From assembly GCF_023115355.1 (NCBI RefSeq), contig NZ_CP096021.1, positions 310,001 through 374,000 of the forward strand: a stretch of 64,000 bases of DNA, given 5' to 3'. Below are positions 30,551-64,000 of the stretch, one piece after another; position 1 is the stretch's first letter, and each line of letters begins with the position of its first letter. Source of the DNA: Halocatena salina (GTDB lineage Archaea > Halobacteriota > Halobacteria > Halobacteriales > Haloarculaceae). The notes under the pieces are model-generated. The model worked only from the letters and a program-made list of their open reading frames with translations, was not told the origin of the DNA and searched no databases. The position numbers and the translations under genes are program-made.

Positions 30551-30680
30551 GATTCATTTCTTGATATATCTGGGAGATATTTATACAGTCCGGCCTCAAC
30601 CCGATCACATCAAGAATTATTTTATGATATTATATTACTAATATATTAAGTATATTTTAGTTCCAAAAGAATATTATTCG

Positions 30681-49305: not shown

Positions 49306-49734
49306 ATGAGTGTTGTCAGCGTCTCGATGCCTGAAGCGTTGCTTGAACGAATTGATCAGTTTGCGGATGACCACGGTTACACCGGTCGGAGTGAGGTTCT
49401 CCGTGAAGCGAGCCGTAATCTGCTTGGTGAGTTCGAAGATAAGAAACTCGAGGATCGTGATTTACTGGGTGTCGTCACGGTCGTATTCGACTACGAGACA
49501 ACGAGTGTCGAGGAAAAAATGATGCGCCTCCGGCACGAGCACGAGGAGATCGTTACCTCGAACTTCCATAGTCACGGCGGTAGCCATCACTGTATGGAGC
49601 TATTCGTCCTTGAAGGATCGCTCGAAGATATCTCCACATTTGTGGGGAAAGTTCGAGCCACAAAAGACACACTCACCATAGATTATTCGGTGCTGCCTGT
49701 CGATGATTTCGGACCGCTCGCCGACATAAACTGA
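49306..49734 (+). CDS. nikR: NikR-type nickel-responsive repressor
   Basis: The 142-residue protein has an N-terminal ribbon-helix-helix ([35 protein letters not shown]) and a C-terminal ACT-like nickel domain. The four square-planar nickel ligands of E. coli NikR are present with exact spacing: the His in LRHEHEE, then 11 residues on the HxH pair in [10 protein letters not shown], and its Cys. It should bind DNA when nickel is plentiful and shut down uptake. I used the ATG at 49306, which starts the beta-strand as in the family, not the frame start 33 bases upstream. It stands just ahead of the NMT1-type importer genes and is likely their regulator. Confidence 0.93.
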
Positions 49735-49830
49735 TTCTATCGTCGGTTCGTAGATGTAGCTGAGATCAACATCTAGTACTCTCCATCTGGAGATTTCAGA
49801 TGATATTAACAACCCACCCCTGAATCGCAG

Positions 49831-49845
49831 AGATTATTATAATCT
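49831..49845. promoter_or_regulatory. 15-bp palindrome before the NMT1-type importer
   Basis: AGATTAT-T-ATAATCT is perfect, and ends 21 bases before the ATG of the binding-protein gene. It can be both a TATA-like element and an operator, and lies in the only gap between NikR and the transporter genes. Confidence 0.5.
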
Positions 49846-49866
49846 ACACCAATATTAGCAACACCG

Positions 49867-50898
49867 ATGAATCATATTACACGACGGAGGATGCTCCGAG
49901 ATGTCGGCGCAACTGCTGTCATTGCTCCGGGTCTCACCGGTTGTCTCGGCCGGAGTGATGGAAAATCGCTTGACTCCATCACAGTCGCCTACGTTCCGAT
50001 CTATCCGAATATGCAACACTATGTAATGGAGGAAGTAGGATATTACAACGACATACCGACTGATGTCACTGTCGAGCGCTTCAGCGCTGGTCCAAACGTC
50101 GTGAAGGCGTTCGCTAGCGGTGATGTCGACGTTGCAATGTTCGGCATCACTCCAGCAATGGTACTTGTCGACAAGGGCACTGAAGCGGGCGTCCTCGCAG
50201 CGAACTCCCGGAACGGGTTTAAGATCATGGCAACGAGTTCAGTTATTGACTTGTACAAACAGAAGGGACCTGCCGCATTCGAGCAATTTGAGGAGGAACA
50301 CGATCGGAAGATTCGATTTGGTGTACCACCGGATGGAAGCGTCCCAGATGTCGTCCTACGGTACTGGATTCAGGAAGACCTCGGGGTAGGTGAGATGGAG
50401 TCCGTCATCCACAAGTCGAACGTTCCGCCAGCACAGGCAGTTCAGGCGATCCAGTCGGGAGATATCGATGCAACGATCATCCAAGAGCCGTTTGCGACAA
50501 TCATCAACCAAGACGACGGGTTCGGCGAACTCACGTGGTCCGGTACTATCCTAGAGAGTCATCCAGTAACGGTGCTGTTCGCGAATCAGCGGGTTATCGA
50601 CGCGAGCGATGTCTCACGGTCGCTGGTAGAACAGCACATAGCAGCGACCGAGTTTACAGCGGGCTCACCGGATGCATCAGCCAGTCACGCTGCATCGATT
50701 ATTGGATCTGGTGTGAATGAAGCCCTCGCCAAGGCTGCCATGGAGTCGCGTGCGTCTGATTTCCTCTCGAATCCCCATTCGATCACCGACCAAGCGGTGA
50801 CGATGGGCGAGTTCGTCGCGAACGTTGGAAACATCTCCGGTTCGGTTGCGGCGAAGGACCTGTTCGCCTTCGAAGCCTACGACGCGGTCCAATCATGA
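49867..50898 (+). CDS. NMT1/SsuA-type ABC substrate-binding lipoprotein
   Basis: The 343-residue periplasmic-type receptor has a Tat motif (TRRRML) and a lipobox with Cys26 (GLTGCLGR), so it is probably anchored to the outer face of the membrane. The fold is that of the NMT1/THI5 and nitrate/sulfonate receptors: ITVAYVPIYPNMQHYVMEEV, GDVDVAMFGITPAMVL, IRFGVPPDGSVPDVVLRYWI and QSGDIDATIIQEPFA. Relatives bind sulfonates, thiamine precursors, nitrate or bicarbonate. Here it lies between two NikR-type genes and ahead of other nickel/cobalt importers, so nickel or a nickel chelate is a serious candidate. Its stop overlaps the permease start (ATGA). Confidence 0.88.
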   Translation: MNHITRRRMLRDVGATAVIAPGLTGCLGRSDGKSLDSITVAYVPIYPNMQHYVMEEVGYYNDIPTDVTVERFSAGPNVVKAFASGDVDVAMFGITPAMVLVDKGTEAGVLAANSRNGFKIMATSSVIDLYKQKGPAAFEQFEEEHDRKIRFGVPPDGSVPDVVLRYWIQEDLGVGEMESVIHKSNVPPAQAVQAIQSGDIDATIIQEPFATIINQDDGFGELTWSGTILESHPVTVLFANQRVIDASDVSRSLVEQHIAATEFTAGSPDASASHAASIIGSGVNEALAKAAMESRASDFLSNPHSITDQAVTMGEFVANVGNISGSVAAKDLFAFEAYDAVQS

Positions 50899-51737
50899 GT
50901 TTGCATACAGACCCCAGTACTGCCGTGGTTGACGGTTCTCGATTCGAGGGTGACGTACAACGATATCTTCGCGGTGTCGGTGGATTCAGTATGTTTCTCC
51001 TCGTCTGGTGGATCGGTGCGGCAATGACCCACCCGTCGTATCTGGTACCGGGACCTGCAGACTCGGTACGGGCATTCCTCGATTTGTTTGCAACCTCGAC
51101 TGTGATTGTCGTTCCTATCGCTGGTTCGGAGGTTGTTCTTCCGACGGGCCTCGCTCATCTCGCACAGACCCTATTTCATTACGTGCCCGGGTTACTTCTC
51201 GGCGCAGCCGGGGGTATCAGCCTTGGACTAGCGATGGGCTGGAACAAACTCCTCGACGACTGGCTACAGCCGCTCGTCCGGGTGCTTCGTCCGATTCCAC
51301 CCTTGGCTTGGGTCGTCTTCGCGATCGTCTGGTTCGGAATTCACCATACCGGCGCAGCGTTTATCGTCTTTGTCGGCGCATTCTGGATCAACTTCTATGG
51401 TGCCTATGGTGGTGTCGAGGACGTGTCGGGAGAATTGATCGACGCCGCGTCGACGCTCGGTGTGGAACGTGATCTCTCGATGCTGAAGCTCGTCGCGCTG
51501 CCAAGTGCGGCACCACAATTGCTGACGGGCTTCCGGACGAGTATTGGCCGGTGCTGGATGATCGTCGTCGGTGCGGAACTGTTCGGCGCACCCGGTGTCG
51601 GATACGAGATCATCAACGCATCGAACAACCTTGCGATGGCGACCAGTGTCGCCTATATGTTCCTCATCAGCCTCGCCTTCCTTTGCATGGACATCGGCTT
51701 CCGACTCGTGGAACGGAGGATACTCGCATGGCGCTGA
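50895..51737 (+). CDS. ABC permease of the NMT1/SsuC type
   Basis: The 280-residue inner-membrane subunit has six hydrophobic segments and the binding-protein-dependent permease signature EAA-like loop ([20 protein letters not shown], then [15 protein letters not shown]). The N-terminus is cytosolic and acidic. It overlaps the binding-protein gene by 4 bases and the ATPase gene by 10 bases. The closest characterised types are SsuC/TauC permeases for sulfonates, but the gene context is nickel-related. Confidence 0.9.
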
Positions 51738-52516
51738 GCGATACGTCACCTACGACGGAAGAGTCTAGACAGAAGATCACTGTCCGGAATATCAGTAAGA
51801 AGTACGAGTCCGTCCACGCACTCGCCAATGTCTCGTTCTCGGTTGCGAACGGAGAGTTTTGCTGTGTTGTCGGTCCGTCGGGGTGTGGAAAAACGACGCT
51901 GTTGCGGACGATCGCCGGGCTTGACGATCCTGACAGCGGCTCCATCCTGATCGACGAGCAGTCGATCACTGAACCTGGGCTGGATCGAGGAATGGTGTTT
52001 CAGGAGTACGCACTGTTCCCGTGGCGGACTGTCCGTGGGAACATTCGCTTCGGCCTCGACCGTCCCACGTGTGACTGCCCGGACTGCGCGGCGCGGGTGC
52101 GGGAGCTGATCGACCTCGTCGGACTCGAAGGGTTTGAGGACGCGTACCCGAAGGAGCTGTCCGGGGGAATGAAACAGCGCGTCGGTATCGCCCGCGCTCT
52201 TGCTGTAGATCCGGAGATTCTGTTGATGGATGAACCGTTCGCGAGCGTCGACACTCGGACACGCGACCGTCTACATACCGAACTGCTTGATATTTGGACA
52301 CAGACGGAGAAAACCGTCGTATTCGTCACTCATGACATCGACGAAGCCGTAAGGCTAGCTGATCGAATCATCGTCATGGCAACAGCCCCCGGCACTGTTC
52401 GATCAACTCTCACTATCGATCTGAATCGCCCACGTGAGCGGACTGCTCATACCTTCGTCGACTACGTTGCACGCATCAGAGATGAACTCACCAGCCCACC
52501 GGATGCTGATCGTTGA
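51728..52516 (+). CDS. ABC ATPase of the NMT1/SsuB type
   Basis: The 262-residue ATPase powers the same importer. The Walker A is [14 protein letters not shown] (48-60), the Q-loop is [17 protein letters not shown], the signature is [15 protein letters not shown], the Walker B is [12 protein letters not shown] and the H-loop is [17 protein letters not shown] Cys pair, CDCPDC near residue 115, is unusual in the helical subdomain and could bind metal. The ATG at 51728 is chosen because all upstream codons of the frame overlap the permease gene and look non-coding. Its stop is followed by palindromic sequence. Confidence 0.92.
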
Positions 52517-52528
52517 TGCCCGAACCCG

Positions 52529-52550
52529 GATAGTTATTGAAATAACTATC
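52529..52550. promoter_or_regulatory. 22-bp palindrome (9-base arms) before the truncated NikR-like gene
   Basis: GATAGTTAT-TGAA-ATAACTATC. The half ATAGTTATTG recurs once more at about 52594-52603, overlapping the GTG start of the next gene. This is a good candidate operator for a NikR-type protein; it also lies 12 bases after the ATPase stop, so a terminator is an alternative. Confidence 0.5.
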
Positions 52551-52583
52551 TCATAACCACTATTTCCATCATAAATATGAGAT
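52548..52583. promoter_or_regulatory. Second inverted repeat, ATCTCATA / TATGAGAT
   Basis: Eight-base arms at 52548-52555 and 52576-52583 are separated by 20 bases. The half TATGA resembles that of the E. coli NikR operator (GTATGA...TCATAC), but the halves here face the other way. Operator function is inferred. Confidence 0.35.
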
Positions 52584-52601
52584 ATTTAATATATAGTTAT
52601 T

Positions 52602-52889
52602 GTGATATCTGTGGTGGTGGAACGACTTCGGGGCGACCTCGAGCGGTTTGCCGAAGAGCACGGAGACAGCGGACGAAGCGAGATTACTATCTTTGCATAT
52701 GATGCACTCGAAATCGAACTCGCTGGCAACACAAACTGTGTTGAAACGTTCGCCATCGAAGCCGAGTACGCGGATGTCTCACGCTTTATCGCGACCGTTC
52801 GAGGAACCGATGCGTCTGTCTCTGCTGAATATACGGCCATACTGATCGATGTGGTGAGCACTGAGATCGTAGAGCACGTAACGGAGTAG
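52602..52889 (+). CDS. Truncated NikR-like protein
   Basis: The 95-residue product joins the first half of a ribbon-helix-helix (RLRGDLERFAEEHGDSGRSE) directly to the later part of an ACT-like domain (NCVETFAIEAEYADVSRFIA). The second DNA-binding helix, the linker and the nickel-binding His residues are absent; the position of the ligand Cys is kept. It starts with GTG. It may be a decaying paralogue, or a small protein that mixes with full NikR and modulates it. The open frame is intact and its acidic composition is normal, which argues against complete decay. Confidence 0.6.
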   Translation: MISVVVERLRGDLERFAEEHGDSGRSEITIFAYDALEIELAGNTNCVETFAIEAEYADVSRFIATVRGTDASVSAEYTAILIDVVSTEIVEHVTE

Positions 52890-52966: not shown

Positions 52967-53022
52967 GATGTTCTTGAAGAGGGCAACTTTATTATATTCG
53001 CCATCAGAATTACCAAGCAGCC

Positions 53023-53700
53023 ATGGCACACATTCATCTCGGAGAAGGATCGTTCCCGCTGTGGGCACTGATCGTCTGGACTCTGCTCGGCGTCGGGCTG
53101 ATTGGCGCTGTCGTTTATCGGATCCGAAAAGGCGGCATCAAAACACACCAGATCGCGCTCGCTGGAATCGGGACGGCCGCGAGTTTCGCGGTTTTCCAGC
53201 TGAATATCCCCGTGTGGGGCGGCGTCCACATGACCCTCACAGGTCTCGTCGGCATCCTCGCCGGTCCGCTCCTCGGAGCACTCATCGCGCTGGTCGTGAA
53301 CATCTTCTCGGCGGCACTCGGTCACGGTGCTGTCGGTCTGCTCGGCGCGAACACGTTGGTCAACGCCACTGAAGCCATCGTCGCGTATTATGCGTTCAAA
53401 ACGCTGATTCGGATGGACTGGAACAGCTTCCCAGCGAGTGCGAGCGCCGCAACGCTCGGCCTGTCGGCTGGGGCGATCTTGATGGGTGCAATCATCGTCA
53501 TTAGTGGTGTGAACGGGAGCACACTGCCCCGTGGTGACCTGACCATTGCAGTTGCCGGACTCGTTGGGCTCAACCTCGGCGTCGCCGTCATCGAAGGAAT
53601 GCTGACTGGGTTCATCGTCCAGTTCCTCGCGTCGGTTCGTCCCGATCTTGTCGGTCTCGGCGACCACGCTAGGGAGGAGTCTGCGGGGGTGATGCTCTGA
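53023..53700 (+). CDS. cbiM: CbiM/NikM-type S component of a cobalt/nickel ECF importer
   Basis: The 225-residue membrane protein has about six or seven hydrophobic segments. The metal-binding N-terminus reads MAHIHLGEG. Canonical CbiM/NikM begins MHI, with His2 in an ATCUN-like site; here Ala is inserted, and removal of Met would restore His to position 2. Further conserved pieces are PVWGGVHMTLTGLVGILAGP, with GHGAVGLLGANTLVNA (His and Asn near the metal) and the C-terminal VAVIEGMLTGF. It is the first gene of a four-gene unit (cbiM, small subunit, cbiQ, cbiO) with overlapping or nearly touching ends. Confidence 0.93.
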   Translation: MAHIHLGEGSFPLWALIVWTLLGVGLIGAVVYRIRKGGIKTHQIALAGIGTAASFAVFQLNIPVWGGVHMTLTGLVGILAGPLLGALIALVVNIFSAALGHGAVGLLGANTLVNATEAIVAYYAFKTLIRMDWNSFPASASAATLGLSAGAILMGAIIVISGVNGSTLPRGDLTIAVAGLVGLNLGVAVIEGMLTGFIVQFLASVRPDLVGLGDHAREESAGVML

Positions 53701-54023
53701 TGCAGCGCTGGAAGCAGTATGGTGGGCTTGTCGGCCTGTTCGCGGGCTGTTTGGCCGCCGGACTGTGGGGCTTCACGTCGACTGGCGGCGCACTCCCGTG
53801 GGCCAAGCGGTCTGCAAAGACGCTCCAACGTGGCGTCCAAGACGGCGGTGGCACACTCATCGACCTCAACCGGGGAATCATCATCGCTGGTCCTATTCGG
53901 AAAGGTGGGATGATGCTCGAATTCCTCGGGGTCGTTGTCCTGCTCGCCGTCATCGGAATCGGACTATATATCTACGTTGATCGCTACAGTGGTCTCGACG
54001 AAGAGGAGAGCGCGGCTCAATAA
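53700..54023 (+). CDS. Small two-helix subunit (CbiN/NikN-like position)
   Basis: This 107-residue membrane protein has helices at about 7-26 (YGGLVGLFAGCLAAGLWGF) and 74-93 (FLGVVVLLAVIGIGLYIYV), with an extracellular loop between and an acidic tail. It has the size, topology and operon slot of CbiN/NikN, the auxiliary subunit needed by many cobalt/nickel ECF systems, but I see no clear CbiN or PDGLE sequence motif. It overlaps the cbiM stop (TGATG) and ends 2 bases before cbiQ. Confidence 0.75.
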   Translation: MQRWKQYGGLVGLFAGCLAAGLWGFTSTGGALPWAKRSAKTLQRGVQDGGGTLIDLNRGIIIAGPIRKGGMMLEFLGVVVLLAVIGIGLYIYVDRYSGLDEEESAAQ

Positions 54024-54025
54024 TC

Positions 54026-54838
54026 GTGACGACACTCTCAAACCACGTTCCCGACCCACGGCTCATCACGGCGTTTGCCGAGCGTCGCGACGGACCACTG
54101 CATCGCATCAACCCATGGACAAAAGTCGGAATCGTTGGCGCACTCGTCCTCGCGGTTACGGTGTTCGACCGGCTCGTCCTGCTGTCCGGACTGTACGGGG
54201 CAGTCCTCCTCGTTTATGGCCTCGCGGGCCTCCCGTATGGCCGGCTGGCAGGCTGGTACGCCTTTCCGATGTTGTTTATCGTCTCCGTCGCTGGTCCGCT
54301 TGCCTTTCTCGAACCGGGGGTGCCGATCGGTGGTGCGCTCTCGACGCCTCTCGGTGCGCTCTCGATCACGTGGGGTGGCGTAGTCTTGTTCGCAGAGCTC
54401 AGCTTCCGGTCGCTGACGGTCGTCACGTTCGCGCTGACGGCGTCGATGACGACGACGTACACTGATGTCGCCTACATACTCGGTCGATTGCTCCCCCGAC
54501 CGATCGATCAGATCGCACTGCTCACGTATCGGTTCACGTTCGTCATAATCGAGACGTTGGAGGACCTGGTGAAGGCTGCGCTCTCCCGGGGGGCGAACTT
54601 CTCGGAGTTCTGGTCGAACAAACGCCTCTACGCCAGGATTCTCGGCATGACGATGTTGTCGGCAATCGAGCAGTCCGAACGGCTCGTCACGTCGATGGAA
54701 GCCCGCGGCTACGACGGTGACATCACGTTGTACGGTGACGTCCCGCGGCCACCCGTCCACGAACTCCTCCTGGTCGTCGGGTCATACGTCGCCATCGTCG
54801 GATACACAGCAGTCACGATGGACGGGGGAGGGCTATGA
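54026..54838 (+). CDS. cbiQ: CbiQ-type transmembrane (T) component
   Basis: The 270-residue scaffold subunit links the S component to the ATPase. It has five or six hydrophobic segments and the two ATPase-coupling helices: SRGANFSEFWSNKRLYARIL and later SERLVTSMEARGYDGD, the A-R-G motif (MEARG) of T components. The start is GTG at 54026, the only one that suits the overlap with the previous gene. The stop overlaps cbiO by 4 bases. Confidence 0.92.
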   Translation: MTTLSNHVPDPRLITAFAERRDGPLHRINPWTKVGIVGALVLAVTVFDRLVLLSGLYGAVLLVYGLAGLPYGRLAGWYAFPMLFIVSVAGPLAFLEPGVPIGGALSTPLGALSITWGGVVLFAELSFRSLTVVTFALTASMTTTYTDVAYILGRLLPRPIDQIALLTYRFTFVIIETLEDLVKAALSRGANFSEFWSNKRLYARILGMTMLSAIEQSERLVTSMEARGYDGDITLYGDVPRPPVHELLLVVGSYVAIVGYTAVTMDGGGL

Positions 54839-55713
54839 GCCAAGACGAATCACCGCTCGTTTATCTCCAGTGTGGCGCCCACACCTACCCGGACGGGACC
54901 GTCGGGATGCACGACATCGAGTTCAGCGTCTATCCCGACGAGGTCATAGCACTGGTCGGCGGCAACGGCGCTGGCAAATCGACACTGCTTGAACATCTGA
55001 ACGCGACGCTCGTTCCTGACGATGGCGAACTGGTCGTCGATGGAACGCCGATCACCGAGGAGAACAAAGCTCACGCGCGAAAGGAAGTCGGATTCGTCTT
55101 CCAGGATGCCGACACACAGCTGGTTGCCCCCACGGTGTTGGACGACGTGATGTTCGGTCTCCAGAACTACGGCGTTCCCGGTGACGAAGCGAAAGGACGT
55201 GCCAGGGAGGCGCTCACGACCGTCGACGCGAGTCACCTCGAAGATCGGATCCCGCACTACCTGAGCGGCGGCGAAAAACGGCTCGTCGGTCTCGCTGGTG
55301 TACTCGTGCTCGAACCGCGGGTGGTCGTCCTCGACGAGCCGCTCGCCGGTCTCGATCCCGAGCGGTCGCGACTGGTCGCAGAGCGCATCCACCAGATCCA
55401 CGAGGACGGTATCAGCGTCGTCCTTTCGACACACGACCTCGAATTCGCCGCTGAGGTCGCTGATCGGGTCTGCGTGATGGCTGACGGCAATATCATCGGG
55501 AGGGGAACGCCGAGTGAAGTGTTCTACGACGACGTGCTGTTGGACGAAGCAAATCTGCATCCACCGAGTTCGGTTCGCGTGGCCCGCGATGTGGGATTGG
55601 ATGCGACCGTACAGCCAGTGACAGAAGATGATCTCGTGGCACTTCTCACGGACATAGCCGTCGATTCGGAAACGATTCAGACCCGCTCACTCGATGGCAG
55701 CGGTCACGACTGA
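54835..55713 (+). CDS. cbiO: CbiO-type ATPase of the cobalt/nickel ECF importer
   Basis: The 292-residue ATPase has its Walker A in LVGGNGAGKSTLLEHL (41-56), the Q-loop in VGFVFQDADTQLVAPTV, the signature LSGGEKRLVGLAGVL, Walker B VVVLDEPLAGLDP and the switch VLSTHDLEFAAEVAD. A C-terminal extension of about 50 residues (VRVARDVGLDATVQPVTEDD) follows the core. It powers uptake of cobalt or nickel together with the three genes before it. The last 20 bases overlap the start of a decayed DUF1405 gene. Confidence 0.94.
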   Translation: MSQDESPLVYLQCGAHTYPDGTVGMHDIEFSVYPDEVIALVGGNGAGKSTLLEHLNATLVPDDGELVVDGTPITEENKAHARKEVGFVFQDADTQLVAPTVLDDVMFGLQNYGVPGDEAKGRAREALTTVDASHLEDRIPHYLSGGEKRLVGLAGVLVLEPRVVVLDEPLAGLDPERSRLVAERIHQIHEDGISVVLSTHDLEFAAEVADRVCVMADGNIIGRGTPSEVFYDDVLLDEANLHPPSSVRVARDVGLDATVQPVTEDDLVALLTDIAVDSETIQTRSLDGSGHD

Positions 55714-55993: not shown

Positions 55994-56425
55994 TCAAGAC
56001 TGGATAGAATGATCGGGGAGATCCTCAGCGAGTGACGTGATCGAGTAGTCCACCGCTCGGACATCGGAAACTGACCGAACGGTGTTAACGAACCCTGATA
56101 TCTCTTCGACACTCCCCTCTAAGACGAATAGTTCTATACAGTACTGCTCTCCGACGTGTGCATGAGTGGTCGCGGAGACGGTGGAATCGTTCTCATGTCG
56201 TATGCCTCTGAGACGCTGTTGAACCGTGAGTTGACAGTATTCGAAAATAACTATCACTGTGCATATGTGTAACTGACCGTCAATCTCTCGCCGCTGAAAC
56301 TCCTCGAGGAGCGTTCGTGTACCTTCGCGTACGACCTCACTACGGCCGCTATACCCATGTTCGTCAGCAAAGGAATCGATACGAGCCAGCAACGCTTCGG
56401 ACATCGAGATGCTAGCGATAGTCAT
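55994..56425 (-). CDS. nikR: NikR-type nickel-responsive repressor (second)
   Basis: The 143-residue protein has the same plan as the first NikR: ribbon-helix-helix (ASISMSEALLARIDSFADEH, GYSGRSEVVREGTRTLL) and ACT-like domain. The nickel ligands are complete: the His in IRHENDS, then 11 residues later the HxH in THAHVGEQYC, and its Cys. It is divergent from the CobW-like operon, with 97 bases between the starts. ATACTAAT at 56426-56433 and ATTAGTAT at 56487-56494 form inverted halves in this gap. It probably regulates itself and the downstream GTPase/NikABC genes. Confidence 0.92.
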   Translation of the reverse strand: MTIASISMSEALLARIDSFADEHGYSGRSEVVREGTRTLLEEFQRREIDGQLHICTVIVIFEYCQLTVQQRLRGIRHENDSTVSATTHAHVGEQYCIELFVLEGSVEEISGFVNTVRSVSDVRAVDYSITSLAEDLPDHSIQS

Positions 56426-56522
56426 ATACTAATATAGGCCCCTAAGTTAATATCTTTTGTTATGCTGTATCCCACAGAACATAATAATTAGTATTTTAGT
56501 GGGGCAGATTCATAAACCGAGT
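56426..56522. promoter_or_regulatory. Divergent promoter region between NikR and the CobW-like operon
   Basis: An AT-rich 97-base gap with inverted halves ATACTAAT (56426-56433) and ATTAGTAT (56487-56494), and TTAGTATTTTAG close to the CobW side. The halves lie next to the starts of the two transcripts and could let one NikR dimer pair control both. Confidence 0.45.
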
Positions 56523-57740
56523 ATGGTGTCGAACAACACCCCGATTCCAGTAACGATTTTGAGCGGAAGCCTCGGTGCCGGCAAGACGACGACGCTCAAC
56601 AACGTCCTCAACAGTGAGCGAGAACTGAACGCCGCTGTCGTCATCAACGACATGGGTGAAGTGAACATCGACGCCGACCTCGTTGAGCGTGAGTCAGAGC
56701 TCTCTCAGAGCGACGAGGAGATCATCGAACTGTCGAACGGGTGCATTTGCTGTCGGCTTCGTGGAGACATGCTAGACGAGGTCGGTCGGCTGGCCAAAGA
56801 GCGTGACTTCGAGTATCTACTCGTCGAATCATCTGGAATCAGCGAACCGATTCCGGTCGCACAGACGTTCGCTCGTGGATTCGAAGACGCGGAGTTCGAC
56901 CCCACTGGCGTCTACGAGCTCGACACGATGGTCAGCGTCGTCGACGCGCACAGCTTCTGGCAGGGATTCGATTCGGGACAGGCACTCACGGACGACTCCA
57001 TCGATCCCCAAGGCAATCGCGTCCCGGAAGAAGCACTCATGGACCAGATCGAGTTCTGCGACGTCCTCCTGTTGAACAAATGCGATCTTGTTCCTGAAGA
57101 AGAACTGGAGGAGATGGAAGCGGTACTGCAAGCACTCCAACCCCGAGCGCAGATCATTCGAACCGAACACGGCGCGGTTGATGCCGCGGAGATTCTGAAT
57201 ACGGGACGATTCGACTTCGAGCGGGCCAGCCAATCCGCTGGATGGAAGCGCGAGCTACAGGACGGTCACCATCATGAGGCCGCTGCCGAGGAACACGGGG
57301 TTACGTCGTTCGTGTTCGACGCCGACCGACCGTTCCATCCCGACCGAATCGCGCGTCTGTTCGCCGATCTCCCGGAGGGTATCGTTCGAGCCAAGGGATT
57401 CTTCTGGTCGGCCGGTCGTGAGGACATCGCAATGGGTCTCGACAAGGCAGGACAGTCCGTTCGAGCCGGGCCGAGCGGAACCTGGATTGCTACCCTCCCC
57501 GAGGCCGAGCAACAGCGCTATTTCGCGATCCGTCCCGGCATCAAAGACGACTGGGACGAGCACTGGGGTGATCGCGGTATCGAACTCGTGTTCATCGGCC
57601 GTGAATTCGATGAGGAGTCATTGATCCGACGACTGAACGACTGTCTCCTCTCGGATGCGGAGATGGATGAGGACTGGAGAACGTATCCGGATCCGTTCGG
57701 TTCCGATGAACAGCGCGAACTGGCGCTGGCCAACAACTGA
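56523..57740 (+). CDS. COG0523 (CobW-like) metal GTPase, first copy
   Basis: The 405-residue G3E-family GTPase has Walker A ILSGSLGAGKTTTLN (12-26), the metal motif Cys74-Ile-Cys76-Cys77 in SNGCICCRLRG, the guanine motif LLNKCDLV, and a CobW C-terminal domain with FDADRPFHPDRIARLF. A His-rich loop (DGHHHEAAAEEHG) lies between the domains. COG0523 proteins deliver zinc, cobalt or other metals to apo-enzymes. Being next to nickel repressors and importers, this one probably handles nickel or cobalt. The ATG at 56523 is the family-like start; the upstream 22 codons overlap the promoter. It overlaps the second copy (TGATG). Confidence 0.92.
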   Translation: MVSNNTPIPVTILSGSLGAGKTTTLNNVLNSERELNAAVVINDMGEVNIDADLVERESELSQSDEEIIELSNGCICCRLRGDMLDEVGRLAKERDFEYLLVESSGISEPIPVAQTFARGFEDAEFDPTGVYELDTMVSVVDAHSFWQGFDSGQALTDDSIDPQGNRVPEEALMDQIEFCDVLLLNKCDLVPEEELEEMEAVLQALQPRAQIIRTEHGAVDAAEILNTGRFDFERASQSAGWKRELQDGHHHEAAAEEHGVTSFVFDADRPFHPDRIARLFADLPEGIVRAKGFFWSAGREDIAMGLDKAGQSVRAGPSGTWIATLPEAEQQRYFAIRPGIKDDWDEHWGDRGIELVFIGREFDEESLIRRLNDCLLSDAEMDEDWRTYPDPFGSDEQRELALANN

Positions 57741-58984
57741 TGAGCATCGACGATCAACCCCCCGTCACGATCCTGAGTGGCGGGCTCGGGGCCGGAAAGA
57801 CGACACTACTCAACCACCTCCTCACCGTCGGCAGTGAACAGTACGACATCGCCGTCCTCGTCAACGACGTCGGTGAGGTGAACGTCGACGCCGATCTCAT
57901 CGAGAACGGCTCCGAACTCTCGATTGACGATGGAGGCGTCACCGAACTCTCTAACGGGTGTATTTGCTGTGGCCTTCAAAACGAACTTGATCAAGAGTTG
58001 AAACGTCTCGCTCTCGATGAGGAGTTCGATTACCTGGTCATCGAAACCTCAGGTATCAGCGATCCAGTTCCGATCGCACAACGGTTCGTCTCACCAGCGC
58101 GTGCTTCCGCGCTGTACGAACTCGATACGACCGTCACCGTGGTCGATGCCCACCAGTTTCACCAAACGTTCGTCCTCGGCAACCCACTTAATCCGACTGA
58201 CGACGCTCGACCACTCTCAGATTTGCTCGCCGAGCAAGTCGAGTTCTGCGATGTTCTCGTTCTCAACAAATGCGATCTCGTCTCTGAGAAGGAGTGCGAG
58301 GAGGTAGAACACGTCGTCCGAACATTCCACCCTGGAGTAGACATCGTCCAAACGACTGAAAGCGCCATCGAACCGGATCGAGTCCTCGGGACGGGACGAT
58401 TCGATAAGGAGGAGACGAGTAATGCTGCCCGGTGGAAACAGGCAATTTCCACCGGTCACGAGGACGACACAGACGCCGAGACGGAGACACACGACCACGA
58501 TCATCTCCACCCACCCGAGGAGTTCGGTGTCGATTCGTTTGTCTACGAGCGTCATCGACCGTTCCATCCCGAGCGGTTCCATGAGTGGCTCTGCTCGCTC
58601 CCTGACTCCGTCATCCGGGCGAAAGGGCACTTGTGGGTTGCTGGACGCGAGCGCTACGCCCTCAACCTGAGCCAGGCAGGAACACAGACTCACGTCGACG
58701 TCAACGGTCGGTGGGCGGTGACGCTCCCGGCGTTCGAGCGTGAATCCTACCGTGAATCGCGGCCACATCTCCACTGGGACGAGCAGTGGGGTGATCGGGA
58801 AGCAAAACTCGTCTTCATTGGTGCAGAGATGGACGACACCGCCATCATCGACGCTCTCGACGAGTGTCTCCTCTCGGAGACGGAGATCGACGAAAACTGG
58901 GACGTGTTCGCAAATCCGTTCCCGGGAACGATGGAGTGGTCCCACCCCCCGATCGAACAACGCCTCGTGGTAGGTGAACAGTAG
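57740..58984 (+). CDS. COG0523 (CobW-like) metal GTPase, second copy
   Basis: This 414-residue tandem paralogue of the preceding gene has Walker A ILSGGLGAGKTTLLN (11-25), the same CICC motif at Cys74/76/77, guanine motif VLNKCDLV, a longer His/Asp-rich loop (TETHDHDHLHPPEEF) and a CobW C-terminal domain (YERHRPFHPERFHEWL). The two copies may act on different targets or form a heterodimer. Its start overlaps the first copy and its stop overlaps the MoaB-like gene, so all three are translated as a unit. Confidence 0.92.
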   Translation: MSIDDQPPVTILSGGLGAGKTTLLNHLLTVGSEQYDIAVLVNDVGEVNVDADLIENGSELSIDDGGVTELSNGCICCGLQNELDQELKRLALDEEFDYLVIETSGISDPVPIAQRFVSPARASALYELDTTVTVVDAHQFHQTFVLGNPLNPTDDARPLSDLLAEQVEFCDVLVLNKCDLVSEKECEEVEHVVRTFHPGVDIVQTTESAIEPDRVLGTGRFDKEETSNAARWKQAISTGHEDDTDAETETHDHDHLHPPEEFGVDSFVYERHRPFHPERFHEWLCSLPDSVIRAKGHLWVAGRERYALNLSQAGTQTHVDVNGRWAVTLPAFERESYRESRPHLHWDEQWGDREAKLVFIGAEMDDTAIIDALDECLLSETEIDENWDVFANPFPGTMEWSHPPIEQRLVVGEQ

Positions 58985-59568
58985 TGAGCGGAAGCGACCA
59001 CGAACTCTCCGCGATCGAAGATCGGCGGACGACCGACACCGACGGGCACGACTGTATCGACCCGATCGGCGTGGCCATCGTGACCGTGTCTTCGTCTCGC
59101 AGTGAAACCGGCGAGAAGCCATCGCTCGATTCCAGCGGCGATACCATCGCGAATGTCCTAGAAAGCGCAGGACATGTCGTCACACATCGTCGAATGGTTT
59201 CGGACGACTACGTTCAGATAAAGTCGACTGTGAGCGAGTGCCTAGATCAACCGGATGTCGATGTCGTTGTGACAACAGGTGGAACAGGCGTCACTGTTGA
59301 CGACATTACTCCAGATGCAGTCGAGAATCTCTTCGACCGCGAACTGCCGGGCTTTGGAGAAGCGTTCCGGTGGCTCTCGTGGGAAGAGGTTCGGACGCGT
59401 ATCGTCTCAACCCGTGCGACCGCAGGTATCGCCCGTGATGTTCCAGTGTTCGTGCTACCCGGAAGTGAGAATGCCGTCCGGCTCGCCACAGTAGAGATTA
59501 TCTCCGAAGAAGCTCCGCATCTCGCTGGACTTGCAACCCGACACATGGCTAGTGAGTGCGATGAGTGA
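58984..59568 (+). CDS. MoaB/MogA-type molybdopterin adenylyltransferase-like protein
   Basis: The 194-residue protein has the MoCF-binding fold: GVAIVTVSSSRSE near residue 30, DVVVTTGGTGVTVDDITPDA (about 96-115) with the pterin-binding TGGTG motif, LPGFGEAFRW (normally ELPGFGE.FR) and VFVLPGSENAV. The family adenylates molybdopterin before metal insertion. The first 25 residues are acidic and non-conserved. It begins with GTG on the last base of the CobW stop. Why it is in a nickel/cobalt unit is unclear: it may be a second paralogue serving metal insertion in general. A housekeeping MoaB would be expected elsewhere. Confidence 0.85.
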   Translation: MSGSDHELSAIEDRRTTDTDGHDCIDPIGVAIVTVSSSRSETGEKPSLDSSGDTIANVLESAGHVVTHRRMVSDDYVQIKSTVSECLDQPDVDVVVTTGGTGVTVDDITPDAVENLFDRELPGFGEAFRWLSWEEVRTRIVSTRATAGIARDVPVFVLPGSENAVRLATVEIISEEAPHLAGLATRHMASECDE

Positions 59569-59580
59569 GAACACGACCCG

Positions 59581-60286
59581 GTGCTCGGATTCGTATGGCG
59601 GGTGGATCACGTGACCCTGTACGGAATCGGGCTCGGATCGGGTGCAGTCGGCCTGCTCACGGTTCGTGGTCGTAAACAACTCGGAGTGACTGACATCGTC
59701 TACTCACCGGGGCGGCGCTCACAGGGCGTCGCAGTGGAGTACATCCCCGAATCGAAAGTAGAGGATTTCGAATTCCCGATGAGGAGTGCCCCCGAGGAAC
59801 TACGAGTGGCGTGGAAAACAGCGGCTTCCGAGGCCGCGCCGCGGGCACGGGATGGTGATACTGCGTTCGTCACACTCGGTGATCTGTACATCTACTCGAC
59901 GTTCGGTCGTCTCCGGCGGACACTGCAGGTGGATCACTCTGACGTTGATATCGAGGCGGTTCCAGCCCGTCATCGGTTGACTGTGGGAAGGCCCAACGTG
60001 TTTAAATTTGAAACCACCAATATATCAAATGAGCTTGTTCTACTACAACCCGAATTGTTTTATGTGTCACGGAAGTCGTACGGAGTGATGGCCCACCTAT
60101 CGATCCCATACGAAGAAGAGGCCGATCAGGCCGTTGTCCTCCACCGAATACCTGATCGTATCGAAGCCACCCAGGAAAAGCTTGACTACAAACGATGTGA
60201 CCGAAAACGCCAGATTTCGAGAATTAGAGGCTCCAGTCAATGGCGCTCACAGGCGGATATATCGGGCGCTTTAGGAGACATAGAGT
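59581..60286 (+). pseudogene. Truncated cobalt-factor II C20-methyltransferase (cbiL-like)
   Basis: The first 125 residues match CbiL/CobI: VTLYGIGLGSGAVGLLTVRG (normally GxGPGDxxLLTV), GVTDIVYSPGRRSQGVAVEY, and GDLYIYSTFGRLRRTL with VDIEAVP (normally GDPxxYSTFG...EVVPG). Key glycines are changed (GPG to GSG, GDP to GDL). After about 59965 the resemblance stops, although the frame stays open to 60339 with unfamiliar sequence (YGVMAHLSIPYEEEADQAVV). It is probably a broken cobalamin gene left in the operon. Start codon GTG; 12 bases after the MoaB-like gene. Confidence 0.65.
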
Positions 60287-60494
60287 ATGAGCAACAACGA
60301 TCCGTCGGCCGTAACACTCAGCGGTGTCAGTATCGATGAGGCGGCGACGACCGCTGGGTTTTCTCGCGACGGCCAAAGCCGGTCAGGAACTGTTCGAGAC
60401 AGCAGTGGGTGAACTACAAGGGCTCACCGAGTGGTTGCAGGACCAAACCGCACGTTCGAACGACCGACAGAGCGACGAAGAACGCGAGCGCTAA
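60287..60494 (+). pseudogene. Small gene with a frameshift, coupled to the nikA-like gene
   Basis: After a good ribosome site (TTAGGAGACATAGAG) the ATG frame reads MSNNDPSAVTLSGVSIDEAA TT. The other frame continues naturally from GFLATAKAGQELFETAVGEL to QGLTEWLQDQTARSNDRQSD and stops at TAATG, overlapping the next gene. The total length is 208 bases, one more than a multiple of three, so a single extra base near 60340-60360 would explain the break. The product would be about 68 acidic residues, no family known. A programmed shift or a sequencing error are alternatives. Confidence 0.55.
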
Positions 60495-62068
60495 TGACGA
60501 ATCTACGAAACTACCGAAACAGTCGACGAAGCGTGCTGAAAGCAATGACGGCTGGTCTCGCCGGACTTGCGGGTTGTAGTAGTGTCTTACAAGGAGATGA
60601 AAGCGATTCGACTTCGGAGCAGAAGACGACCTTTCACATCGGAACACCCTGGAATCCGGACTCCCTCGATCCGCTCGTCAAAGGGTGGATGTTCCGGAAG
60701 CTGAACATCATCGAACCACTTGTGATCGCCGATTACGATGCATCGGTCAAACCGGGCCTAGCGTCCGAGTGGACCACGAGTGACAACAAACTCACCTGGG
60801 AATTTACACTTCAGGAAGACGTTTCGTTCCACGATGGAACCCCCCTAACTGTCGATGCGGTAGTCAGTTCCCTCCGGAGGAGTTTCGAAGCTGATTCGCT
60901 GGCGAATCTGCCCGTCGAGTCCATTTCTGCGAAGGGAGAGCGTGTCGTCGAAATCGAAACGAGCACGCCGTTCGCACCGCTTCCGGCACATCTCACCCGC
61001 GCACCGACCAGTATCGTTGCGGAGGATTCGTACGACAACGACGGTGATATCAAAAAACCGATTGGTACAGGACCGTTCCAGTTCGACTCATGGACGCAGG
61101 GTGAGCGAATCACTGCCGTGTCGAACTCGTCCTATCGTGGCCAGACGCCAGCGATAGACACACTCGTCTATGAGAGTGTTCCGGACGAGCAGACGCGGGT
61201 ACTGAAACTCGAAAACACGGAACTCGACATGGCGCGCGCACTGTCGGGATCGACGATTTCCACACTGGAAGACCGAGAGTACCTTGAACCCGTCGATTAT
61301 GCGGTTCCAAGATCTCGATATCTCGTCTACGACACGACATCGTCTCCGTTCGACGATGTGAAAGTGCGCCGTGCAGTCATGCACGCGATCGATCAGGAGG
61401 AGATCGTCGGAAGCGTGTTGAACGACCTCGGTCCGGCTGCCATTGGTCCCTTCCCACCGGAGGTTACCGACTGGGCTAACACAGACCTCGAACCGTATCC
61501 GTACGAGCCGCAAACAGCCGAACAGTTACTCGCCGAAGCCGGATGGAAGGCGACGGGGAACGGACGAGAGAGAGACGGAGAGACACTAGAGATCGGCCTC
61601 TGGACCTACGATGCACGGACACTCCCTCTCGTATCCGAGGTCGTCCAAGGGCAATTGTCACAGGTCGGGTTCAGTGTGAACCTTCAGGTGATGGATTACA
61701 GCACTATCGACGAACGTGCGAACAGCGAGGAGTTCGACCTTGTGATGTGGTCGAACTCGCTCCTCTGGTATTCGGATCCAGACCGACTCGCAGATTTCGT
61801 CCACTCCAAGGACGCGACAATGTTCAGTGGGTATGCCAACGACCGCGTCGACACGCTACTCGAAGAGGCGAGGCGGATTCCGGATGCCAACGAGCGGAAA
61901 CGACGATACGACGAGGTGCAGTCTATCGTCCAACGAGACGTCCCCATCGGCTGGCTGACGTACGTCACAAACGTGGTCGGGATGAACGCCGGCATCGATG
62001 GGTACGAACCACTGCCGACGGAGACGTGCTATCATCTTGAAAACATCGAGTATGACATGGAGAAATAA
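60494..62068 (+). CDS. Family-5 ABC substrate-binding lipoprotein (NikA/DppA-like)
   Basis: The 524-residue receptor has a twin-arginine signal (SRRSVLKAMTAGLAG, 10-24) and a lipobox Cys28 (GLAGCSS). The family-5 extracellular fold is clear: LVIADYDASVKPGLASEW, VSFHDGTPLTVDAVVSSL, IGTGPFQFDSWTQGE, VRRAVMHAIDQEEIV and the end EARRIPDANERKRRYDEVQ. NikA and oligopeptide receptors share this fold. The nickel context and permeases of the NikBC type favour nickel, probably as a chelate. The chosen ATG overlaps the preceding small gene. Confidence 0.88.
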   Translation: MTNLRNYRNSRRSVLKAMTAGLAGLAGCSSVLQGDESDSTSEQKTTFHIGTPWNPDSLDPLVKGWMFRKLNIIEPLVIADYDASVKPGLASEWTTSDNKLTWEFTLQEDVSFHDGTPLTVDAVVSSLRRSFEADSLANLPVESISAKGERVVEIETSTPFAPLPAHLTRAPTSIVAEDSYDNDGDIKKPIGTGPFQFDSWTQGERITAVSNSSYRGQTPAIDTLVYESVPDEQTRVLKLENTELDMARALSGSTISTLEDREYLEPVDYAVPRSRYLVYDTTSSPFDDVKVRRAVMHAIDQEEIVGSVLNDLGPAAIGPFPPEVTDWANTDLEPYPYEPQTAEQLLAEAGWKATGNGRERDGETLEIGLWTYDARTLPLVSEVVQGQLSQVGFSVNLQVMDYSTIDERANSEEFDLVMWSNSLLWYSDPDRLADFVHSKDATMFSGYANDRVDTLLEEARRIPDANERKRRYDEVQSIVQRDVPIGWLTYVTNVVGMNAGIDGYEPLPTETCYHLENIEYDMEK

Positions 62069-62223
62069 CCGCCGTTACGAGCCACTCTCTCGAAGTTGGC
62101 CTTCAGTAAGCAGACACAACATATGATAGATGGTATAATCGACACCGCTCGTACGACCCAAATGATCAGAATGCGGAATCACTCATCGGATATTACACTA
62201 CAAGTCATTCAGGAATAAAGCGT

Positions 62224-63168
62224 ATGAATCGATACTTACTGAAACGGTTCGGGACGACCGTTCTGGTTCTCATCAGTGTATCTATACTCACGTTTAGCAT
62301 GGTTTTCGTCACGCCAGGGGACCCAGCTGTCACTGCACTTACCGAACAGATGGGTCATCAGCCGTCAGAAGAGGCAGTGTCGGAATTTCGAGAGCAACAC
62401 GGTCTAAACGACCCGTTCGTTGTCCAGTACGTGAATTGGCTTACCGATGTACTGAGCGGCGATCTGGGGGTGTCGTATAGCTCCGAGCAGACGGTGGCTT
62501 CGATGATTGGACAGCGGCTACCGAACACGATTACACTCGCTGTCGCCGCGATGGCTGTCGCTATCGCGATCGCGCTGCCCGCTGGTGTCGCGAGTGCGAC
62601 GAATCCAGGCAGCCGAATCGACTACGCGGCACAGTTCGGTGCGCTGGTGGGCGTCTCGATGCCGAACTTCTGGCTCGGATATCTGCTCATCATGATCGGT
62701 GCCCTCTGGCTGAATATCTTTCCTGTCTCCGGGGCTGGCGATCTCGCACATCTTGTCCTCCCAGCGGTGACCTTAGGCTCGGGAATGGCTGCGGTCATCG
62801 CGCGGTTGGTACGAACAGCGATGCTCGACGTATTCGACGCCGCGTACATCGACACTGCCCGGTCGAAGGGGTTACGGGAGCGAATCGTGGTGTACAAACA
62901 CGCACTCCGGAACGCACTCGTCCCCGTCGTAACCATCGTCGGACTGCAGTTCAGTTACGTCCTCAATGGGGCCGTCGTCGTCGAGGTCGTGTTCCAGCGG
63001 CCGGGCCTTGGGACGTTGCTCGTTGACGCGATCTTCGCGCGAGATTATCCTGTAATTCAGGGAGTGACGCTGCTCGTCGGCGTCATCTTCGTACTGACAA
63101 ACCTGATCGTCGATCTGACCTACCAGTTTCTCGATCCGCGAATCGACCACGGGGGTGAGCCAGTGTGA
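62224..63168 (+). CDS. ABC permease of the NikB/DppB type
   Basis: The 314-residue membrane subunit starts MNRYLLKRFGTTVLVLISVS. It has six hydrophobic segments, the family's periplasmic-side segment VTPGDPAVTAL and the EAA-like coupling loop DTARSKGLRERIVVYKHALR NALVPVVT. It lies 155 bases after the receptor gene and overlaps the next permease (GTGA). Together with the receptor and NikC-like gene it forms a nickel/peptide importer; the ATPase genes would lie beyond the window. Confidence 0.92.
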   Translation: MNRYLLKRFGTTVLVLISVSILTFSMVFVTPGDPAVTALTEQMGHQPSEEAVSEFREQHGLNDPFVVQYVNWLTDVLSGDLGVSYSSEQTVASMIGQRLPNTITLAVAAMAVAIAIALPAGVASATNPGSRIDYAAQFGALVGVSMPNFWLGYLLIMIGALWLNIFPVSGAGDLAHLVLPAVTLGSGMAAVIARLVRTAMLDVFDAAYIDTARSKGLRERIVVYKHALRNALVPVVTIVGLQFSYVLNGAVVVEVVFQRPGLGTLLVDAIFARDYPVIQGVTLLVGVIFVLTNLIVDLTYQFLDPRIDHGGEPV

Positions 63169-64000
63169 GTGGAGAGGTCTCTAGCGATGCGTCTCCAAGA
63201 CCAATCGGAACGCGATGGCGGCAGTGGTATGAGGCGCTAACGACGACGCGGCTCACACAGCTTGGTGCCAGCATTGTGTTTGCTCTGTTCCTACTCGCGG
63301 TATTCGGCCCGATCATATCGCCGTACGATCCGACTACACAGGCACTCGCTCACAGGCTAGAAGGTCCGTCGCTCGTACACCCGTTCGGCACCGATCAACT
63401 CGGACGTGACGTGCTTACGCGGCTTCTCCACGGCGCACGTCTCTCTCTGGGTATCGCTGTCGTCGTAACCAGTGTGCGCCTCACACTCGGAACGATCGTC
63501 GGGCTCGTCGCTGGGTACGCTGGCGGCTGGATCGATGAGGCGTTGATGCGACTTGTCGATACACTACTGGCATTTCCGGGAATCGTCCTTGCACTCGTGA
63601 TCGCTGGCATCCTCGGCCCGAGCCTCACGAACGTGATGGTTGCACTCGCGGTCGTCGGCTGGGCCTCATATGCCCGCTTGGTTAGGAGCAGCGTCCTGTC
63701 GGCTCGCGAGCGGGAGTTCGTAACCGCGTCGCGGCTTCTCGGCCGCTCGCGCGCTCACGTGCTCGGTCGACACCTAATTCCGAACGTCATCGCACCGGTC
63801 GTCGTTCTGGCGACACTTGACATCGGTGGCGTCATCTTGGGAACGGCAGGGCTCTCCTTCCTCGGACTGGGTGCACAGCCGCCGACGCCCGAATGGGGGA
63901 CGATGCTCGCATCAGGTCGGAACTATCTGCGGACCGCGTGGTGGTTGGTAAACGCCCCCGGTGTCCTGATCATGCTCACTGTCTTCGGGTTCAACCTCCT
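63165..64000 (+). CDS. ABC permease of the NikC/DppC type (partial, cut by window end)
   Basis: From a GTG at 63165 overlapping the previous stop, 278 codons are open to the window edge. Conserved pieces are an N-terminal helix VFALFLLAVFGPIISPYDP, HPFGTDQLGRDVLTRLLHGA (the DppC hallmark), ASRLLGRSRAHVLGRHLIPN (EAA loop) and LSFLGLGAQPPTPEWGTMLA. The missing end should be only a few residues. It is the partner of the NikB-type permease. Confidence 0.92.
   Translation, partial: MSGEVSSDASPRPIGTRWRQWYEALTTTRLTQLGASIVFALFLLAVFGPIISPYDPTTQALAHRLEGPSLVHPFGTDQLGRDVLTRLLHGARLSLGIAVVVTSVRLTLGTIVGLVAGYAGGWIDEALMRLVDTLLAFPGIVLALVIAGILGPSLTNVMVALAVVGWASYARLVRSSVLSAREREFVTASRLLGRSRAHVLGRHLIPNVIAPVVVLATLDIGGVILGTAGLSFLGLGAQPPTPEWGTMLASGRNYLRTAWWLVNAPGVLIMLTVFGFNL

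Follow-up and report, generated by a model that had tools for sequence, protein, structure and literature searches.

What does an ABC importer of the NMT1/SsuA type carry when it lies between NikR-like genes and cobalt/nickel uptake genes? Such a setting occupies positions 49306–52889 of the window (the whole 64-kb stretch analysed), on a 415 kb contig of a haloarchaeal genome that has Halocatena marina among its nearest named relatives. The original prediction described here a complete NikR with all four nickel ligands, the importer, a truncated NikR-like gene and cobalt/nickel ECF genes following at once, and it read the setting as a sign of a nickel importer class. Our analysis agrees with it on the genes and suggests a different reading of the metal: the importer probably (about 0.6) belongs to a regulon of transition-metal limitation, most likely for zinc and possibly for zinc, nickel and cobalt broadly. 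Zinc is ranked first, and a broad response to shortage of the three metals is a serious alternative. The importer locus contains the following features.

49306–49734, plus strand: NikR1 (NikR_C PF08753, 71.7 bits; RHH_1, 28 bits; ligands H / HSH / C)
49804–49861, plus strand: importer promoter/operator (TATTAAC at 49804–49810; ATCGCAG-N3-TTATTA-N15-TTANNAA at 49824–49861, overlapping the TATA box)
49867–50898, plus strand: substrate-binding protein (SBP), a lipoprotein (PF13379 NMT1_2, 148.7 bits; RR motif and lipobox GC)
50895–51737, plus strand: ABC permease, SaoP/TauC/NtrB-like (PF00528 BPD_transp_1, 81.5 bits)
51728–52516, plus strand: ABC ATPase (PF00005, 119.6 bits)
52070–52087, plus strand: CDCPDC (CxCxxC) in the ATPase, residues 115–120, from the comparison of orthologues and paralogues
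52602–52889, plus strand: decayed NikR3 (aligned to intact orthologues)

SBP, permease and ATPase form one operon. The SBP is a Tat-type lipoprotein of PF13379; as a member of the NMT1_2 family it is not the SBP or S component of a NikABCDE, NikMNQO or NiCoT system. All scores against the substrate-defined equivalogs (SsuA, TauA, NrtA, Sao) fall below the curated cut-offs. NikR1 combines the RHH and NikR_C domains with the four ligands (H, HxH, C). The gene at 52602–52889 has no Pfam match and aligns at 38% with the intact NikR3 that stands at the same place in orthologous loci, the ligand region being deleted, and it is therefore a decayed gene.

The NikR setting is not accidental, as is seen from its conservation. 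An unbiased search covering 97 relatives separated close orthologues (59–76% identity) from a distinct paralogue group (27–44%), and a contig scan seeded on two SBP peptides yielded 36 haloarchaeal orthologues. Of 41 orthologous loci from various haloarchaea, some belonging to the same species, 32 have a NikR next to the importer; the 23 loci of related (paralogous) importers have none. CbiM and COG0523 genes are each present at 23 of the 41, and ZnuA or its remnant at 10 or more, an undercount, many loci being incomplete. The nine loci without NikR comprise seven lone importers amid unrelated genes and two that retain CbiMNQO; the lone copies are chromosomal in some species. In one sister genome (L067) a decayed importer still stands between NikR1 and CbiM. 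The original prediction had pointed to orthologues in sulfur operons without NikR as contrary evidence; among the loci examined, no orthologue has a sulfur operon context. Conservation thus strongly supports the link of the importer to NikR and metal uptake, and a role in sulfonate, taurine or nitrate uptake was rejected, as no sulfur genes lie beside the orthologues.

The metal is best approached through the promoter. Upstream regions of the orthologues can be aligned with hardly a gap (aaATCACAGgtaTTATTAtAat...gagTTAgcAACAc; TATTAAC lies farther upstream) and define the element ATCAYAG-N3-TTATTA-N15-TTANNAA. The importer site of the window (chance expectation 0.00–0.03) scores 41.8 bits with a model from whose training it had been omitted, the next best match in the 64 kb scoring 11.5. 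Of the core TTATTA-N15-TTANNAA the window has two copies, one preceding the importer and the other CbiM (0.00 in 100 shuffles); CbiM promoters have the core without the ATCAYAG flank. When 1.4 Mb was scanned with the model trained on SBP promoters, the top matches other than importers were four starts of ZnuA or ZnuA-remnant genes (27.7, 23.2, 20.2 and 18.9 bits; next, 12.6). In 21 whole genomes the pattern gave 20 matches among those listed, and the reversed-pattern control 4; essentially all pattern matches precede this importer or a ZnuA/AztC-type zinc-binding protein. Aligned ZnuA promoters carry TTATTAAC, ATCAYAG, TTATTA and GTTAnCAA at the spacing of the importer, and in at least six genomes the full element is common to the promoters of both. 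SBP and ZnuA have no relationship as proteins, which makes the common element good evidence for their co-regulation. Nor does the element simply travel with the importer, as the operator-bearing genome G005 has ZnuA and no importer.

An operator common to a ZnuA-type uptake gene, our mark of zinc limitation, is thus present in orthologous genomes, and further genes of the orthologous clusters are of zinc type. ZnuA of these clusters has a His-rich loop and matches PF01297 at 202–210 bits; the PF01297 and PF00950 matches of the Znu proteins are well above cut-off, and their best NCBIfam models are zinc types (AztC/AdcA, AztA and AztB for ZnuA/B/C), all with scores below cut-off. znuABC lies in the importer cluster in Natrinema hispanicum, Haloarcula rara, Halorubrum 48-1-W, Halomicrobium katesii and loci L148–L151. 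The COG0523 proteins of the clusters are closest to the zinc-chaperone-like ZigA. In Haloferax gibbonsii the cluster has, near COG0523, HisI and an S14 protein in which two of the four zinc cysteines are substituted, both candidate members of the regulon by their position in the cluster; Zur regulons are known to include these paralogue classes (PMC2770081, PMC6103462). The host itself encodes neither ZnuA nor any other PF01297 protein, and neither S14 nor HisI was found in the cluster of the window. The evidence for zinc is thus drawn from orthologues, and in the host zinc uptake may fall to the other importers of the island. Over 45 genomes, absence of ZnuA predicted the presence of the importer inconsistently.

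In the rest of the metal island of the window, CbiMNQO and the NikABCDE-type and CbiL-like genes point towards nickel and cobalt.

52989–53016, plus strand: TTATTA-N15-TTANNAA before CbiM (core pattern search of the window)
53023–53700, plus strand: CbiM-type ECF substrate component (PF01891, 120.7 bits)
53700–54023, plus strand: CbiN-like small protein (orthologues annotated 'cobalamin transport operon protein'; no Pfam match)
54026–54838, plus strand: CbiQ ECF T component (Pfam profile match)
54835–55713, plus strand: CbiO ECF ATPase (profile match)
55994–56425, minus strand: NikR2 with canonical ligands (NikR_C; no RHH_1 Pfam match)
56457–57740, plus strand: COG0523 GTPase a (ZigA-like, 433 bits, cut-off 600; start codon uncertain)
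57740–58984, plus strand: COG0523 GTPase b (ZigA-like, 357 bits)
58984–59568, plus strand: MoaB/MogA-like protein
59581–60339, plus strand: CbiL-like tetrapyrrole methylase, broken (3' part out of register with the family)
60431–62068, plus strand: NikA/Opp-type substrate-binding protein
62224–63168, plus strand: NikB-type permease (NF045470, above cut-off)

The last two belong to a NikABCDE-type transporter directly downstream. NikR2, both COG0523 GTPases, the MoaB-like protein, the broken CbiL-like gene and this transporter had been overlooked in the original prediction.

The regulator at the importer operator would be of the NikR type. Orthologous clusters contain four NikR clades, among which NikR3 is a supported clade (with a warning for long branches) and has the ligands H / HxC / C in place of the canonical H/HxH/C in all 21 rows assessed. 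Operator-bearing genomes without an adjacent NikR have a NikR1-like gene (at least 60% identity) elsewhere, which is weak evidence because nearly all genomes have one.

The importer itself has two clade markers. The CDCPDC of the ATPase, already noted as unusual in the original prediction, corresponds to a CxCxxC invariant in 40 of 40 orthologues, lone copies included, and absent from 23 paralogues, the 59%-identical L043 and a Spirochaetales relative (24 paralogous ATPases compared). The SBP loop PNMQH, with H51, is nearly invariant across the clade (Q in one MAG), the position being Y/W or other in paralogous SBPs. Judged from these patterns, both may serve in metal binding. The AF2 model of the SBP is poor (pLDDT 66) and too weak for reading the ligand site. 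H232 was dropped as a clade-specific residue, as in the alignment it falls on the HP motif that CmpA/NrtA-type proteins have.

How else could the locus be explained? Uptake of a nickel or cobalt chelate by the NMT1-type system, repressed by Ni-NikR, would account for the canonical ligands of NikR1 and NikR2, for the adjoining CbiMNQO and NikABCDE-type transporter, for the CbiL-like gene and for the core element common to the importer and CbiM promoters; moreover, LarC, of a nickel-insertion family, is present in 23 of 24 genomes tested. These intact ligands and neighbours count against zinc and for nickel or cobalt. However, the full element is common to ZnuA-type zinc SBPs, the clusters include the zinc-sparing S14, and cluster-C 'nickel' transporters can be under zinc control (PMC5387054). 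Urease, considered as a reason for nickel uptake, was rejected, being absent from the host and most carrier genomes. Overall we regard a dedicated nickel importer as rather unlikely. The original prediction was right about the metal setting and the NikR link, and probably too narrow in naming nickel, given the operator common to ZnuA, the zinc-type genes and the missing urease.

A still less probable explanation is that metal shortage induces the importer while its cargo is an organic nutrient that depends on a zinc enzyme for its synthesis. The known ligands of the NMT1 family are organic or oxyanionic, other members carrying sulfonates, thiamine precursors or PQQ; the nearest folds to the SBP model (pLDDT 66) include TauA, SsuA, CmpA, Thi5 and PqqT, and the cluster contains cofactor genes (MoaB-, CbiL- and IscU-like). 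Yet the genes conserved next to the importer include none for the biosynthesis of a specific nutrient, and the clade-specific cysteine motif of the ATPase is typical of metal sites. That an ordinary sulfonate, nitrate or thiamine-type importer has metal genes as its neighbours on megaplasmids by chance seems very improbable: the similarity to PF13379 and TIGR01728 and the lone chromosomal copies would fit, but the linkage is kept across many genera, no sulfur genes were seen with it, and the lone copies without NikR retain the same promoter element.

Under the preferred reading of metal limitation, a metal-loaded repressor, most simply a NikR paralogue, would occupy the element overlapping the TATA box when metal is plentiful and thereby shut the importer promoter. 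Under scarcity the importer would be expressed together with ZnuABC (where present), CbiMNQO, NikABCDE-type importers and COG0523 chaperones. The ligand of the SBP would probably be a complexed metal or a small chelator (metallophore) rather than a sulfonate, and the CxCxxC of the ATPase may bind cytosolic metal, slowing the pump in the replete cell. We tentatively propose, as a bolder version with less than even odds, that haloarchaeal NikR paralogues, including the H/HxC/C NikR3, are regulators of zinc uptake, their target being an NMT1-type importer of a zinc complex or metallophore gated by CxCxxC.

Several known systems resemble parts of this locus. Importers of the NMT1/SsuA/TauA/NrtA type (PF13379, TIGR01728) match the importer described here in gene order and in the families of SBP, permease and ATPase, but differ from it in the metal-regulon context, the CxCxxC and the PNMQH loop. 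The selenocysteine-assisted organometal (SAO) transporter SaoXPA (PMC13188914) is likewise a metal-linked NMT1-type importer, and Sao models are the best NCBIfam matches of the permease (122.6 bits) and the ATPase (272.5 bits); the importer scores below all their cut-offs (NF040735/040733/040729; 300/295/360), needs no stop codon read as Sec, and no SAO partner genes were recognised in its loci. Also similar are zinc-starvation regulons such as the Zur regulon of Paracoccus denitrificans (PMC5387054) and the COG0523-zinc clusters (PMC2770081), with aztABC/znuABC, COG0523, a cluster-C 'nickel' ABC transporter, a nitrate/sulfonate-type SBP and S14/HisI paralogues. A precedent comes from P. denitrificans, where zinc starvation induces aztABCD, an operon that joins COG0523 to an ABC transporter of the Ni/dipeptide type, and an SBP of the nitrate/sulfonate type (PMC5387054). 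Unlike these regulons, the haloarchaeal clusters are archaeal and have NikR-family regulators instead of Zur. NikR also adjoins metal importers in nickel uptake (NikABCDE, NikMNQO), whereas the operator here is common to ZnuA; the listed targets of archaeal NikR are only Nik/CbiMNQO, NikABCDE and NiCoT, without an NMT1-type importer (PMC2667541). The top fold match of the SBP model (pLDDT 66) is the Staphylococcus aureus SBP 3UN6, described 'with zinc bound' (profile match E 3.7e-11), at 17% identity and with no equivalent of H51 seen.

A 2009 survey reported archaeal genomes without recognisable Fur/Zur (PMC2770081), and in the available part of the paper on H. volcanii znu1 an sRNA is named and no transcriptional zinc repressor (PMC8155600). 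Searches of the literature turned up neither a nickel importer of the NMT1 type nor a zinc regulator of the NikR type. If the proposal is true, the missing regulators of zinc uptake in haloarchaea may be NikR paralogues, and the conserved operator of ZnuA and the importer near divergent NikR paralogues offers a candidate for zinc control that can be tested directly, in a group amenable to genetics. It would also mean a new substrate class for a family of transporters that annotation nearly always labels as sulfonate/nitrate, and that 'nickel' labels (NikR, NikA, CbiM) can mislead.

A further promoter-like match in the window, at 30604 with three mismatches, precedes genes for a secreted protein and a GMC-type oxidoreductase and is probably due to chance.

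The NikR3 genes (for example, L073:14746-15153; L-numbers denote loci from haloarchaeal genomes, with their own coordinates) are a clade of NikR paralogues in which a cysteine replaces the second histidine of the HxH ligand motif. An orthologue of another paralogue, NikR4, was found on the host chromosome (L088:8632-9802), divergent from a gene for a small membrane protein (FIHGAEPGHGW), which is possibly a metal transporter. Where a genome lacks the NMT1/SsuA-type importer, as at L156:9233-11169, the genes immediately after NikR1 are a decayed znuA and a znuB that looks intact, and this arrangement is a further pairing of NikR with zinc-type genes.

ZnuA-type binding proteins (L110:17660-19237 and L118:8617-10071) carry an unusual insertion of about 150 residues, with a conserved PWEWAGLYHLE..TYTYTF block adjoining a His-rich loop. 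The position of znuABC in other genomes is occupied here by a complete NikABCDE/Opp-type transporter (window 60431-63998 and L077:165-3219).

CbiM, the ECF substrate component (window 53023-53700), starts with MAHIHLGEG, as do its relatives in L103 and L118. Once the methionine is removed, a histidine would be residue 2, reminiscent of canonical CbiM/NikM proteins, which have a Met1-His2 metal site. The family match of the CbiL-like gene (window 59581-60339) is limited to the first ~130 residues; its tail is out of register, which points to a frameshift or to decay of the gene.

A paralogue of ribosomal protein S14 precedes a FeoB-like GTPase/Gate protein (L068:20411-20596, L096:18361, L149:16370); in the copy from Haloferax gibbonsii, two of the four zinc cysteines are missing. 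A predicted Natrialba membrane transporter, Acr3-like by eye (L104:7663-8826 and L108:8044-9207), contains HEHGP[HN]CDCPDCG near its start, the CDCPDC string being identical to that of the importer ATPase.
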